IMG/VR virus record: IMGVR_UViG_3300002460_000178
Location: 1-22,483 of that record
Strand: one strand, 5' to 3'
Source: a virus
DNA: 22,483 nucleotides
The position numbers and the translations under genes are program-made. Below the pieces are notes generated by a model that made no database searches, was not told the origin of the DNA, and was given only the letters and a program-made list of their open reading frames with translations. Shown piece after piece: positions 6,314 to 22,483 of the stretch; the stretch's first letter is position 1; each line of letters starts with the position of its first letter.

Positions 6314-7581
6314 AGCCTCGCTTCTTCATAAGGGTTATATTCGTGATGGAGCTTGCCCTGCTCTCCCCACCCCTTACTTTCTACATTGACATTCCACTGC
6401 ACATGCGGGGCTACAGCAAAATACCGAAAAGCATCCGCTGCATGGCTTGCATCATCATGCAATGGATTTTTGGAATTGTCCGTCTCATATTTGTAATGCC
6501 TTAGGGCTTGTAAACCATCGGCGCATTTATTCTTGTCAAAGTAGCAGGTGGGGAATACAGACCTTGCGGCGAATATGCCATCACTGATTGACAACATCGG
6601 CACAATCTCAACCTTGCGTCCTAATCCCTGCATGGTTTCCTCAACGCTCTTGCCTGTGCCTATTTGTTTGGCTCTGGCATCGTGCGGCAGATAATCTGTG
6701 TCGTAAATATAACCTTTTGACTGCAGCGCATTAACATAGTGCTGGATTGATTGCAGCCTGTCTTGATAAAAATCTATTACCCGATATTCAAAACCTTCTT
6801 TTTGCACAAACCAGATTGAAGTATAATCGGAATAACCTAAATCCCAGAAGGTATTAACAGGTCGCTGGTTGTTATAAGGCACGGATATTATATGGTTGTT
6901 GTTTTGTGCGTCCCTCATCTCTTTAGCATAAACCGCTCCTTGGACTACCTGCCTACATTCACCCTCCCAGATATTGAGATAATCGTCCTCTGACCTATTG
7001 CGTAATGCCTGCCTATCCTTTTCAAGTTCTGGATTGCACCACGGATTGTCCCGCCATGATGTCTTGACTACCAGCGCACCTTCTGGGGGATTAACAACAA
7101 ATCTCTGATAAGTTTCGTCCTCGTATAGTTCTGGGTTGAATGAAACCCATATTTCGGAGCCCTCTTTTCTAATTGTGGGGATAAGATAATCCCATGAAGC
7201 CCTTGACACTGCCTGCGCCTCTTCAACCCATACCCTATCAATGCCCTCATAAGATTTAATCTGATTAGCGTTGAGCTTCAGCCCCTCAAAGAAAAACTCT
7301 GTGCCGTTCTGACCTTTGATAGATGCTTGCTGGACTGTGTAAAAATCGGATAGATTAAGAAGTGATATTTGATCTGATAGTAATTTGTGGACTGAATCCT
7401 TGATTGACTTCTGCAGTTCCCTTGCGCATAGAATACGGAGTGGCTCTTGCTCTTGCGTGCCTCGTATCAGCAGGGCTCTTGCAATGCTCCAAGACTTCAG
7501 CCCCTCACGCCCTCCATACAAAACCTTGTATCGGTTAGGACTGAACAAGCCTTGATGCTTTTTGATGAACTCTACTTGCAA
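6310..7581 (-). CDS. terL: Terminase large subunit (TerL)
   Basis: This 423-residue packaging motor combines ATPase and nuclease. Walker A is GGREGLKS (residues 23-30), a form of GxxxxGKS with leucine before K. Walker B is RVWVEE (116-121), with the catalytic glutamate. The nuclease half shows WDLGYSD, LPHDARAKQ and DDASHAADAFRY, the acidic motifs of the terminase_3/PBSX-like RNase H fold. It cuts concatemers and drives DNA through the portal. The start is TTG at 7581, with AAAGGT about 8 nt upstream. No nearby ATG would keep the Walker A motif. It follows TerS and the zinc-ribbon gene. Confidence 0.95.
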   Translation of the reverse strand: MQVEFIKKHQGLFSPNRYKVLYGGREGLKSWSIARALLIRGTQEQEPLRILCARELQKSIKDSVHKLLSDQISLLNLSDFYTVQQASIKGQNGTEFFFEGLKLNANQIKSYEGIDRVWVEEAQAVSRASWDYLIPTIRKEGSEIWVSFNPELYEDETYQRFVVNPPEGALVVKTSWRDNPWCNPELEKDRQALRNRSEDDYLNIWEGECRQVVQGAVYAKEMRDAQNNNHIISVPYNNQRPVNTFWDLGYSDYTSIWFVQKEGFEYRVIDFYQDRLQSIQHYVNALQSKGYIYDTDYLPHDARAKQIGTGKSVEETMQGLGRKVEIVPMLSISDGIFAARSVFPTCYFDKNKCADGLQALRHYKYETDNSKNPLHDDASHAADAFRYFAVAPHVQWNVNVESKGWGEQGKLHHEYNPYEEARL

Positions 7582-7714: not shown

Positions 7715-8222
7715 CTTGTCCTTCTGGCGTTATGTCTATCTCCGCTTCTGCCTCTACAAATTTAATCTCAATCTTGACATTACCAATGCCGCCGCTAAGG
7801 CTCAAATTATCACTATCAGGGTAAAAGCGTTTAAGCTTGCTAACCTCTACCGCCGCCTTCAATCTCGTGGGATGGTCAGGAACCTCAATAAAGTCTTTTG
7901 TCATACTGTTTGCGTCGGCCATGCCCTCGCCGTTTTTAGCAATTACATTAGCCGATATGACCTTGTTGGCCTCCAGCCCATCCTTGAAAACATGGGCTAT
8001 TTTTAGGTTTGTAACGCCAGCCTTCTTGAAGGCTTGCTCAATTGCTGATATCACACGAGGACGCTTTAAAATTTGCTTAACACTGTTTCTGTGCATCCCG
8101 AGCTTAGCCGCCACATCGCCGATGCCCTTGCTTTTTGGCAGCGCTTCGAGCAGTCTGCGCTCATTATGTCTTAATTGTTCATTTCTGAACACACCCTGCA
8201 CATTTTTGGACATATGCAACAT
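7698..8222 (-). CDS. terS: Terminase small subunit (TerS)
   Basis: This 174-residue protein has an N-terminal helix-turn-helix (about residues 24-55, GIGDVAAKLGMHRNSVKQIL), then helices and a conserved-looking DHPTRLKAAVEVSKLKRFYP. HTH plus a middle oligomerisation region, directly upstream of TerL, is standard for small terminases, which recognise the packaging site and recruit TerL. Two starts are possible: ATG 8222 and ATG 8213. GAAGGG lies 11 nt before the first. A promoter-like TTGACA/TATATG pair overlaps the start region (separate entry). Confidence 0.85.
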   Translation of the reverse strand: MLHMSKNVQGVFRNEQLRHNERRLLEALPKSKGIGDVAAKLGMHRNSVKQILKRPRVISAIEQAFKKAGVTNLKIAHVFKDGLEANKVISANVIAKNGEGMADANSMTKDFIEVPDHPTRLKAAVEVSKLKRFYPDSDNLSLSGGIGNVKIEIKFVEAEAEIDITPEGQDVICV

Positions 8223-8986: not shown

Positions 8987-9034
8987 AAAGGAAGACGAAA
9001 AAGATAAAAGAGGTAAAATTCTCCGATGATACAA

Positions 9035-9066
9035 AAGGTAAGGGATTAATCCCTTACCTTTTTTTT
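9035..9066 (+). terminator. Intrinsic terminator within rightward operon
   Basis: AAGGTAAGGG (9035-9044) pairs perfectly with CCCTTACCTT (9051-9060) around ATTAAT, followed by six more T's. It is a strong rho-independent terminator for rightward transcripts. The genes beyond it (48-aa, HNH, 41-aa) then need read-through or antitermination, so it may act as an attenuator. Confidence 0.88.
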
Positions 9067-9103: not shown

Positions 9104-9250
9104 ATGATAATAATAAAACTTAAAAAACAGTTATCCTGCCTGCGCTGTGGGTATCAGTGGAACCCGCGCAAGGCGGAAGTTAGAATATGCCCTAAATGCA
9201 AAAGCGCATGGTTCGACCAGCCGAGAAAGGTAAAGCTAAATGATTCTTAA
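9104..9250 (+). CDS. 48-aa zinc-ribbon protein
   Basis: The ATG follows a tandem AAGGAGG. The 48-residue protein has CLRCGYQWNPR and then CPKCKS, two CxxC pairs 16 residues apart, with WxxR-type spacing typical of small zinc ribbons in phages and plasmids. The end overlaps the HNH gene start by 11 nt, so the two are probably translated together. It may bind nucleic acid. The specific role is unknown. Confidence 0.8.
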   Translation: MIIIKLKKQLSCLRCGYQWNPRKAEVRICPKCKSAWFDQPRKVKLNDS

Positions 9251-9788
9251 AGAAGAATATGAAAGCGGATATCAAGCCCCCGTGATAGATGTAAAGGGCA
9301 GGAAAAGGGGGATAAAGCAATGGGTTGTTTGCCCAATTTGTGAAAAAGGCAGGTGGGTTAGAATTGATTCTACAAAAATAAAAAGTTTTTCAGGAATGTG
9401 TGGTAAATGTCATAACAAATTTACTTCTGGTTCAATGGAAAATCACCCACGATGGAAAGGAGGAAAAAGAAAAAGTAGGGGGTATGTTATGGTTAAGTTG
9501 TCGCCCAATGACTCTTACTATTCTATGGCTACCAATGGTGGTGGTCATTATGTTAGAGAACATAGATTAATAATGGCAAAACATATTGGACGCTGTTTAT
9601 TATCATGGGAAGTTGTGCATCATAAAAACGGAATAAGAGATGATAATAGAATTGAGAATTTAGAACTATTACCTAAAAGCATAGATAATCTATCCATAGA
9701 TAGATTAATAGCAGAAAATAAATCTTTAAAAAAACAATTAGAAAAATATCAAGAAGGGGGTGATAAAAATGATAAAGCTAAAATATAA
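9240..9788 (+). CDS. HNH endonuclease, free-standing type
   Basis: This 182-residue protein has an N-terminal zinc knuckle (C31, C34 and C54, C57), then the HNH_3-like core: YVREHRLIMAKHIG (residues 104-117), VVHHKNG (125-131, with H127 and H128) and NRIENLEL (136-143). A C-terminal helix follows (about 150-172, KSLKKQLEKYQ). Such enzymes nick or cut DNA and often spread as free-standing homing endonucleases in phage genomes. The ATG lies inside the end of the zinc-ribbon gene and has only a weak SD (GAAAGG). It could also assist packaging, but its position far from the terminases on the opposite strand favours a selfish element. Confidence 0.88.
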   Translation: MILKEEYESGYQAPVIDVKGRKRGIKQWVVCPICEKGRWVRIDSTKIKSFSGMCGKCHNKFTSGSMENHPRWKGGKRKSRGYVMVKLSPNDSYYSMATNGGGHYVREHRLIMAKHIGRCLLSWEVVHHKNGIRDDNRIENLELLPKSIDNLSIDRLIAENKSLKKQLEKYQEGGDKNDKAKI

Positions 9789-14860: not shown

Positions 14861-14909
14861 CATAACCAACGGGTCGAGCGGTCAATGCCGCTCATCCTTG
14901 GTGTTAGAA
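14861..14909. repeat. attC-like site C (integron cassette recombination site)
   Basis: The outer cores are TAAC (14863-14866) and GTTA (14903-14906). The arms are CCAA-C-GG (14866-14872) against CCTTGG (14896-14901), and the inner stem is GAGCGG (14876-14881) against CCGCTC (14888-14893) around a short loop. The size of about 49 bp, the two-box arms with a bulged base and the GTTAGAA end match integron attC. The TAA stop of the methyltransferase is the complement of the TTA in the core. Confidence 0.72.
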
Positions 14910-19793: not shown

Positions 19794-19804
19794 TTAGCCC
19801 TCCA

Positions 19805-19912
19805 TTAAAAGGTTATAAAAAGCAATACTATCACTGCCCAAAGAAGAATGGCGGTAGGTATTGCACACAGCAAGACTTTTAAAAAGTTTTTTATAGTGAA
19901 ATCATTATTCAT
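19805..19912 (-). CDS. 35-aa single-pass membrane peptide
   Basis: The ATG at 19912 overlaps the stop of the 69-aa gene (ATGA), with AGGAGGGCTAA before it. It encodes MNNDFTIKNFLKVLLCAI then PTAILLWAVIVLLFITF, one hydrophobic span covering the C-terminal half. It lies directly before the transglycosylase gene, so it may act on the envelope as a holin-like or pinholin-like peptide. That is only a positional guess. Confidence 0.6.
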   Translation of the reverse strand: MNNDFTIKNFLKVLLCAIPTAILLWAVIVLLFITF

Positions 19913-20310: not shown

Positions 20311-20331
20311 TTAGCCCTCCTTGATTTTCAT
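20311..20331 (-). CDS. Micro-ORF MKIKEG carrying the next SD
   Basis: ATG AAA ATC AAG GAG GGC TAA. It starts one base after the stop of the small membrane gene and ends just before the ATG at 20310. Its own SD is GAGGAC, and its codons 4-6 are the SD for the zinc-finger gene. It is either a real relay micro-ORF or the remains of a deleted gene whose ends fused. Confidence 0.4.
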   Translation of the reverse strand: MKIKEG

Positions 20332-20490
20332 TTAGTCCTCTTCTTTTAACACACGTCCAATTAATATACTTATTTGAAGAAGAAAAGCAAGTAACCAACC
20401 CGCAACCGCTAAGAAATTATATTCAAAGATTGCAACACTAAGACAACATATATCAGCTATTAGAGCCAGTATTATTATATATTTTCTCAT
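20332..20490 (-). CDS. 52-aa membrane protein
   Basis: The ATG at 20490 (AATGGCTAA upstream, a poor SD) opens MRKYIIILALIADICCLSVA, then FLAVAGWLLAFLLQISILIG and a charged end (RVLKEED). Two membrane spans with a short loop are likely. It is the first gene after the structured RNA element at 20519-20627, which would form the leader of its mRNA. No family recognised. Confidence 0.68.
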   Translation of the reverse strand: MRKYIIILALIADICCLSVAIFEYNFLAVAGWLLAFLLQISILIGRVLKEED

Positions 20491-20518
20491 TTAGCCATTC
20501 CTATGTCTTATCATTTTC

Positions 20519-20627
20519 AAGATGGTATAGAGCTTTCAGACAGACCCCAATCACCGAATTGAACGGCTGACTGGCACTCTCAACCAGAGAAGTCCTTGCG
20601 CTCTGATGCGCAACTCTATACCATCTT
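20519..20627 (-). ncRNA. Candidate structured RNA closed by a perfect 14-bp stem
   Basis: AAGATGGTATAGAG (20519-20532) and CTCTATACCATCTT (20614-20627) pair perfectly over 14 bp. Inside are at least three hairpins, described on the minus strand: TTGCGC-ATCAGA-GCGCAA, a CTCT/AGAG stem-loop, and CAGTCAGCCG against CGGTGATTG with one bulged G. The result is a multi-way junction of about 109 nt. It occupies the only sizeable gap in this part of the operon and is more GC-rich than its surroundings. No tRNA T-loop or hammerhead core was found. The strand is chosen to match the operon, although the fold works on both. Confidence 0.62.
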
Positions 20628-20638
20628 AGAAATAATAA

Positions 20639-20827
20639 TCAATCACTGCTATCCACATTCCACTCAATCTCACAAATATCGCATTGATACTTGTGGTAAC
20701 AATTTCCTAACTGTATTGACCTTAGCTTATGCCCTGCCTTGCAGCACTTAACATACTCCTCTGGCAGATTAGGCGGATTGTAACTATACCAGATGTTTGC
20801 TGTGCCGATATATTTATACTCCTTCAT
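20639..20827 (-). CDS. 62-aa cysteine-rich phage protein
   Basis: I chose ATG 20827 (MKEYKYIGTANIWYSY), which overlaps the preceding stop (ATGA), rather than an upstream frame to 20851. The protein has KCCKAGHKL, GNCYHKYQCDICEIEW near the C-terminus, with CxxC, CxxxxxC and histidines suited to zinc binding. The SD is GGGG. It is the last gene before the structured RNA element. Confidence 0.68.
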   Translation of the reverse strand: MKEYKYIGTANIWYSYNPPNLPEEYVKCCKAGHKLRSIQLGNCYHKYQCDICEIEWNVDSSD

Positions 20828-21000
20828 ATTATCCCCTGCCTTTTCAGCCAAGCCTCATAATCCTTATCCTTGCTTATTTCATCTATTGTGGTATCATCAA
20901 GGGCATCATACGCCCTGCTTCTTGCAACAAAATAAAATATTGTGATTATAGCCAAAACACTTAAACCTAATAATATCAATCCTAAATAATACCAGAACAT
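20824..21000 (-). CDS. 58-aa single-pass membrane protein
   Basis: I chose ATG 21000 (MFWYYLGLILLG), with GGAGGGC 3 nt upstream, over 21018. One strong membrane span (residues 2-27, LGLILLGLSVLAIITIFYFV) is followed by a charged cytosolic-looking tail YDALDDTTIDEISKDKDYEA and LKRQGII. The topology resembles small phage membrane regulators, but no specific role is visible. It overlaps the next gene by 4 nt. Confidence 0.72.
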   Translation of the reverse strand: MFWYYLGLILLGLSVLAIITIFYFVARSRAYDALDDTTIDEISKDKDYEAWLKRQGII

Positions 21001-21975: not shown

Positions 21976-22080
21976 ATATCTCGAAAGCAGGCAAAGGGAT
22001 ATTGGCATATCGGTCGCCCACTGGTTCAAGTTTATTAAATTGTTCATTTCATAGTTTGTTAAATCCGATATGCCAATCAT
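21961..22080 (-). CDS. Possible 39-aa leader peptide, leaderless start
   Basis: The ATG at 22080 lies 7 nt after the promoter's -10, near the predicted transcription start, and opens MIGISDLTNYEMNNLINLNQ, ending YNALL at a TAG. It lacks an SD, so it would be a leaderless ORF. Both arms of the 22001-22077 inverted repeat lie inside it. It could be a translated leader peptide linked to attenuation, or chance. Confidence 0.3.
   Translation of the reverse strand: MIGISDLTNYEMNNLINLNQWATDMPISLCLLSRYNALL
22001..22077 (-). promoter_or_regulatory. Long-range inverted repeat in the early leader
   Basis: ATTGGCATATCGG (22001-22013) and CCGATATGCCAAT (22065-22077) form perfect 13-bp arms 51 nt apart, beginning a few bases after the predicted transcription start. 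In RNA they would fold into a large stem-loop. In DNA they could be a pair of operators for a looping repressor. A riboswitch-like or autoregulatory leader is possible. Confidence 0.55.
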
Positions 22081-22157: not shown

Positions 22158-22483
22158 TTAATTTAACATACTGGTTGCAATATAAGCATCTGTGCCGTCA
22201 ACATCGCCTACGGCACAGAATATACTGCCATTCCATGTGATGCCGTAAAGGGTAACATTCTTAGGATTAGCCCTTTCAGTCCATGTAATACCGTCAGGTG
22301 ATGTTAAAATATAAGCATCTGTGGCGTCAGCAAAACCTACGGCACAGAATATACTGCCGTTCCATGTGATACCCCAAAGGGTAACATTCTTAGGATTAGC
22401 CCTTTCAGTCCATGTAATGCCATCAGGACTGGTTGCAATATAAGCATCTGTGCCGTCAGCAACCCCTACTGCACAAAATATAC
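22158..22483 (-). CDS. Asp-box (BNR-like) repeat protein, C-terminus only
   Basis: The last 107 residues are visible; the gene continues beyond the right edge. It is built of a 43-residue unit containing SPDGITWTERANPKNVTL then GITWNGSIFCAVG and TDAYI. SxDGxTW is the Asp-box signature of sialidase-like beta-propellers. Phages use such domains in fibres, spikes and receptor-binding proteins. It ends ATSMLN. In a circular genome this would be the far end of the late leftward operon. The DNA units are very similar, suggesting recent expansion. Confidence 0.8.
   Translation of the reverse strand, partial: IFCAVGVADGTDAYIATSPDGITWTERANPKNVTLWGITWNGSIFCAVGFADATDAYILTSPDGITWTERANPKNVTLYGITWNGSIFCAVGDVDGTDAYIATSMLN
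22181..22483 (-). repeat. 129-bp tandem repeats encoding Asp-box units
   Basis: TATAAGCATCTGTG begins at 22181, 22310 and 22439, exactly 129 bp apart (43 codons). Long identical stretches (for example GGGTAACATTCTTAGGATTA) show little divergence. Two full units and a partial third are in the window, and more probably lie to the right. Such near-identical repeats can expand or shrink by slippage and may be misassembled. Confidence 0.85.

Follow-up and report, generated by a model that had tools for sequence, protein, structure and literature searches.

What role can a 131-nt stretch play in a phage operon when it closes on itself through a long stem and sits between the stop codon of one small gene and the ribosome-binding site of the next? 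The locus belongs to a 22,483-base IMG/VR record (IMGVR_UViG_3300002460_000178) of an uncultivated virus of bacteria; the whole of this stretch was analyzed and is called the window here. Terminase, a major head protein, a RecT-type annealing protein, and a DNA methyltransferase are all encoded in the window. The portal protein is 48% identical to that of Escherichia phage phiV10 (Uetakevirus), and the head module is of the epsilon15/phiV10 (short-tailed) type. Judged by RecT, terminase, and gene-sharing comparisons, the phage is isolated. Its closest RecT relative is 70% identical, its terminase relatives mostly show 51 to 66% identity (the exception being one identical fragment), and the loci that carry RecT and terminase relatives have too few genes in common with the window.

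From position 14904 to position 22481, nearly every gene lies on the minus strand and the gaps are short. The element (20508 to 20638, minus strand) spans the space between a stop codon and the next Shine-Dalgarno sequence. The gene upstream of it (20639 to 20851, minus strand) encodes a small Cys-rich protein of 70 codons when read from a TTG start, or a shorter one from a possible internal ATG start. The gene downstream (20332 to 20490, minus strand) encodes a hydrophobic (membrane) protein of 52 amino acids and has its Shine-Dalgarno AGGA at 20502 to 20499. The first-pass annotation of this DNA, made from the letters alone, had described the operon as otherwise gap-free, which is nearly right: other intergenic gaps near the element range from −28 to 54 nt, against 148 nt for the gap that holds it, and a further gap of 115 nt (19794 to 19908) contains a 35-codon membrane ORF.

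The window carries other repeated or symmetrical sequences. An identical 13-base ribosome-site/start module, GGAGGGCTAAATG, precedes four consecutive small genes (window positions 20320, 20128, 19922, and 19803, minus strand), and the gene directly below the element has a diverged version of it, AGGAATGGCTAAATG. Repeated modules of this kind could enable a RecT phage to shuffle its small genes. A perfect 13-bp inverted repeat with 51 mostly unstructured bases between its arms (22001 to 22077) is located in a 245-nt gap, with a repeat-protein gene on one side and the small-gene operon on the other, and is possibly an operator pair. A perfect 30-base palindrome, AAAAGGTAAGGGATTAATCCCTTACCTTTT, found in noncoding sequence at 9033 to 9062, lies near two plus-strand ORFs, one of which encodes an HNH endonuclease (9240 to 9788), and is perhaps a bidirectional terminator.

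Closing stem and interior

The ends AAGATGGTATAGAG and CTCTATACCATCTT, at 20519 to 20532 and 20614 to 20627, form the perfect 14-bp stem described in the first-pass annotation. That description understated the structure, which runs beyond 14 bp. The ends extend outward by 11 columns, 10 of them paired, giving a closing stem of 25 columns (20508 to 20532 with 20614 to 20638) around a branched interior of 81 nt. Of these columns, 88% are Watson-Crick pairs, and 24 of the 25 are paired once two U-G pairs are counted, leaving a single mismatch. The 5′ arm, UUAUUAUUUCUAAGAUGGUAUAGAG (20614 to 20638, minus strand), has its first base directly after the UGA of the upstream gene, while the 3′ arm, CUCUAUACCAUCUUGAAAAUGAUAA (20508 to 20532, minus strand), has its last base five bases ahead of the downstream AGGA.

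This structure is statistically striking and lies far beyond chance. One exact 14-bp inverted repeat with 20 to 150 nt between the arms was observed, whereas windows simulated with a first-order Markov model give an expectation of 0.018 each. Outward extension comparable to that of the element occurred with a frequency of 0.00036 at random placements with the same spacing and at 1 of 351 placements that were similarly AT-rich, and none of 100 simulated windows contained a 25-column stem with 24 pairs. With the fold corrected for composition, the element ranked first among the 4472 windows tested. Its fold z scores were −5.79 on the plus strand and −5.32 on the minus strand, and none of 200 shuffles was equally good.

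Inside the closing stem, two hairpins are well supported. Hairpin 1 (UUGCGC-AUCAGA-GCGCAA; 20596 to 20613, minus strand) adjoins the closing stem, and its inner four pairs have a probability of ~0.97. Hairpin 3 (CCAGUCA-G-CCG-UUCAAUU-CGG-UGAUUGG; 20547 to 20574, minus strand) contains a bulged G and one G-U pair, with most pairs at a probability of ~0.9. The candidate middle hairpin (CUCU-GGUUG-AGAG; 20577 to 20589, minus strand) forms only if the interior is folded alone. It is poorly supported in the full-length ensemble, with a pair probability of 0.05 for the version drawn, so that two of the three internal hairpins proposed earlier have good support and the middle one has not. A branched head is plausible from the predicted fold.

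The 81-nt interior folded without the 14-bp arms gave a z score of −1.8 (p of about 0.05 against shuffles). Because the interior alone is only marginally above the shuffles, most of the signal comes from the closing stem, and an inverted repeat at the level of DNA would give the same fold signal. The element is also richer in GC than its surroundings, as had been noted: its GC fraction is 0.49 (0.53 in the interior), whereas the two flanks have 0.32 and 0.36 and the window as a whole has 0.41.

The element is read as an mRNA-sense RNA because the flanking genes run on the minus strand. The 131 nt folded to −55.7 kcal/mol on the minus strand versus −44.3 kcal/mol on the plus strand. Among the non-Watson-Crick columns of the drawn structure, four are G-U pairs when read on the minus strand but only one when read on the plus strand, small numbers taken from a structure that was drawn for the minus strand; this excess is only suggestive of an mRNA-sense RNA.

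Relatives and known classes

A distant blastn search with the element DNA in phages and plasmids revealed no relative, and the end pair, hairpin 1, and hairpin 3 used as exact patterns gave no matches in viral contigs. The end pair was likewise not found in genome contigs by an exact scan of 11 plus 11 bases, which diverged copies or an unsampled host would escape. No relatives were found for either neighbor gene or for the nearby transglycosylase, and the window RecT had no match in genome contigs. A covariance model of the element matched only the element itself, on both strands, in 458 kb comprising the window and other phage loci, and had no match in 15 whole records. The Rfam search that the first-pass annotation had proposed, carried out against Rfam 15, returned no match at the gathering score and none at E≤10 in 20400 to 20750. 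The literature offered background only and no described counterpart.

The element is a well-defined orphan, a real structure with no relative found. The first-pass annotation had taken it for a conserved structured RNA. A structured RNA in the mRNA sense is the best-supported reading, with a processing signal as the leading mechanism; the word "conserved" is not supported, given that no homologue emerged by DNA, pattern, neighbor protein, or covariance model in collections from which the records closest to the window may be missing. This lack of homologues does not count against an RNA.

Several known classes were considered and rejected. The element is not a tRNA or tmRNA; ARAGORN predicted no such gene. 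The loop of hairpin 3, UUCAAUU, closed by a G-C pair, fits the tRNA T-loop consensus by eye, but the hairpin does not adjoin the closing stem, unlike in a tRNA, and the earlier suggestion of a tRNA-like element is weak. The element is not an intrinsic terminator, because no U run follows the stem on either strand. Integron attC sites carry the core sites RYYYAAC/GTTRRRY at their ends; neither an AAC nor a GTT core is visible by eye in the ends of the element, TTATTATTTC/GAAAATGATAA. A regulatory leader for the downstream membrane gene had also been suggested. A leader that would mask the ribosome site is rejected for the predicted fold, in which the AGGA core is mostly unpaired either way, with an unpaired probability of 0.64 to 0.98 in the presence of the element and 0.46 to 0.97 after its removal in silico; ligand-bound folds are a separate matter.

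Stems of comparable length were found at only two distinct places in 463 kb of 36 other loci, one in L005 (11833 to 11928) and one in L022/L024 (2475 to 2570), a pair of records that hold one and the same sequence. Unlike the element, both stems lead into U-rich sequence, and the covariance model of the element matches neither. Long closing stems do occur in phage operons, and these two are not homologues of the element.

Both places have features of their own. In L022 (2470 to 2699) and L024 (1043 to 1272), the U-rich-ended stem comes directly after a small HTH-like gene and is followed by RF02932 (Betaproteobacteria-1 RNA). In L005 (11767 to 11935), a promoter-like TTGACA-17-TTATGC is followed by the long stem, which encloses two inner hairpins, and by a U run, with a fold z score of about −7 to −8; this could be a discrete small RNA or leader. 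A 14-bp stem in L004 (7856 to 7955) was rejected as a counterpart, as it departs from the element in sequence and interior and has edges resembling those of attC sites. Two sites of that locus, at 7447 to 7485 and 7840 to 7975, have TATAAC...GTTTAAC and TATAAC...GTTATA edges, respectively, with the 14-bp stem in the second and a small gene between them. Judged by these edges, they resemble integron attC sites, here in a phage contig.

Possible roles of the element

Most likely, the element would mark a place where the message is cut or protected. We tentatively favor a cis-acting intercistronic RNA that forms a processing or stability boundary of the RNase III type. The element would be part of the minus-strand polycistronic mRNA, where ~25 near-perfect base pairs would close the branched head. 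This long duplex would be cut by an RNase III-like enzyme specific for double strands, so that the small-gene message upstream and the message downstream come apart, and the resulting ends would be protected by structure. Cutting would perhaps also set free the branched head as a stable RNA about 100 nt long. The stem itself, its borders at the stop codon and the Shine-Dalgarno sequence, its improbability, and its place in a co-directional operon are established; that the RNA is transcribed in the mRNA sense, is cleaved, and has some effect on gene expression is our inference.

Once transcribed, the 25-column stem with one mismatch would supply the duplex of about two helical turns expected of an RNase III target, and its size is in keeping with that of RNase III substrates. 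The element is located between co-directional genes, and translation of the downstream gene after processing would call for a mostly unpaired AGGA core, as predicted here. Against a processing role, no conserved counterpart was found, a DNA-level inverted repeat would give the same fold signal, and a processing hairpin would not require so elaborate a head.

The main rival to the processing or stability boundary is a MITE-like DNA insertion with terminal inverted repeats, placed in the sole dispensable spot, from the stop codon to the next ribosome site, with the RNA fold as a by-product. We consider this possible, if rather unlikely. It fits with a signal dominated by inverted repeats around a marginal interior, with 25-nt arms that are 88% complementary and so qualify as the terminal inverted repeats of a MITE, and with the GC contrast between the interior (0.53) and the flanks (0.32 to 0.36). 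The element also occupies an otherwise tight operon and is missing from every other sequence searched. However, the contig holds one copy only, and no plasmid, phage, or genome match was obtained. No clear target-site duplication is visible by eye beyond a 2-bp GA, and the outermost bases of the element match the phage background in AU richness. Nor was an empty site found, because no relatives of either neighbor gene turned up.

A trans-acting small RNA (decoy, sponge, or protein-binding) cut from the operon transcript, with the T-loop-like UUCAAUU of hairpin 3 as its recognition part, is an unlikely alternative that draws on other features. The fold is compact and closed, with its two well-supported internal hairpins and a loop that resembles the T-loop. 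Moreover, the presence of the Rfam small RNA RF02932 in a phage operon (L022 and L024) shows that such RNAs occur in phages. Set against this, the element has no Rfam match at E≤10, is no tRNA or tmRNA, and has no relatives. On the minus strand, no promoter-like site directly precedes it, and it lacks a terminator; the T-loop resemblance is a seven-base match that could be due to chance. We regard it as improbable that the element represents a new class of phage small RNA, about 130 nt long, in which a long duplex closes a branched head bearing a T-loop and which is excised from the operon message to work in trans (a decoy for a host RNA-binding or defence protein would be one example); a released RNA with a T-loop head would nevertheless amount to an unrecognised phage RNA class.

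Stimulation by the element of readthrough at the UGA of the upstream gene (20641 to 20639), with an extension of about 45 residues, is the least probable explanation and no more than a weak possibility: the frame past the UGA is open across the entire element, with a TAG just beyond it by eye, and the strong 14-bp stem begins 11 nt past the stop, but an open frame of such length is not rare in GC-richer sequence, the extension contains by eye no known protein motif, and the AU part of the stem begins right at the stop codon with no spacer.

Comparison with known systems

The element resembles bacterial MITEs in being short, noncoding, intergenic, and bounded by terminal inverted repeats. It differs from them in being present as a single copy, with neither a target duplication nor related transposon ends found. 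Betaproteobacteria-1 RNA (RF02932), as it occurs in L022 and L024, offers a likeness of another kind, since it too is a structured RNA (about 120 nt) that lies within an operon of a phage; the element is not homologous to it, and the window has no Rfam match.

Structured initiation regions are known from phage T4, where genes 38 and 25 have a structure between the Shine-Dalgarno sequence and the AUG, and where a structure in gene e inhibits initiation from long transcripts (PMC3014915). The element shares with these regions the placement of phage mRNA structure beside a ribosome-binding site, and in both cases the stem shortens the effective flank-to-flank distance. Unlike the structures of T4 genes 38, 25, and e, it stops short of the Shine-Dalgarno sequence, the core of which is mostly unpaired.

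As a putative processing or stability boundary, the element is comparable to the RNase III sites of the T7 early region (R1.1 type), as both are intergenic RNA duplexes that lie between co-directional genes on the polycistronic message of a phage. R1.1, located between T7 genes 1.0 and 1.1, is an intergenic hairpin of 60 nt that contains an internal loop and is proven to be cleaved (PMC6121014). Compared with R1.1, the element, for which cleavage is only predicted, has a longer closing stem and a branched head of 81 nt. If it does act as a processing or stability boundary, it would be one more case of phages dividing a polycistronic message after transcription.
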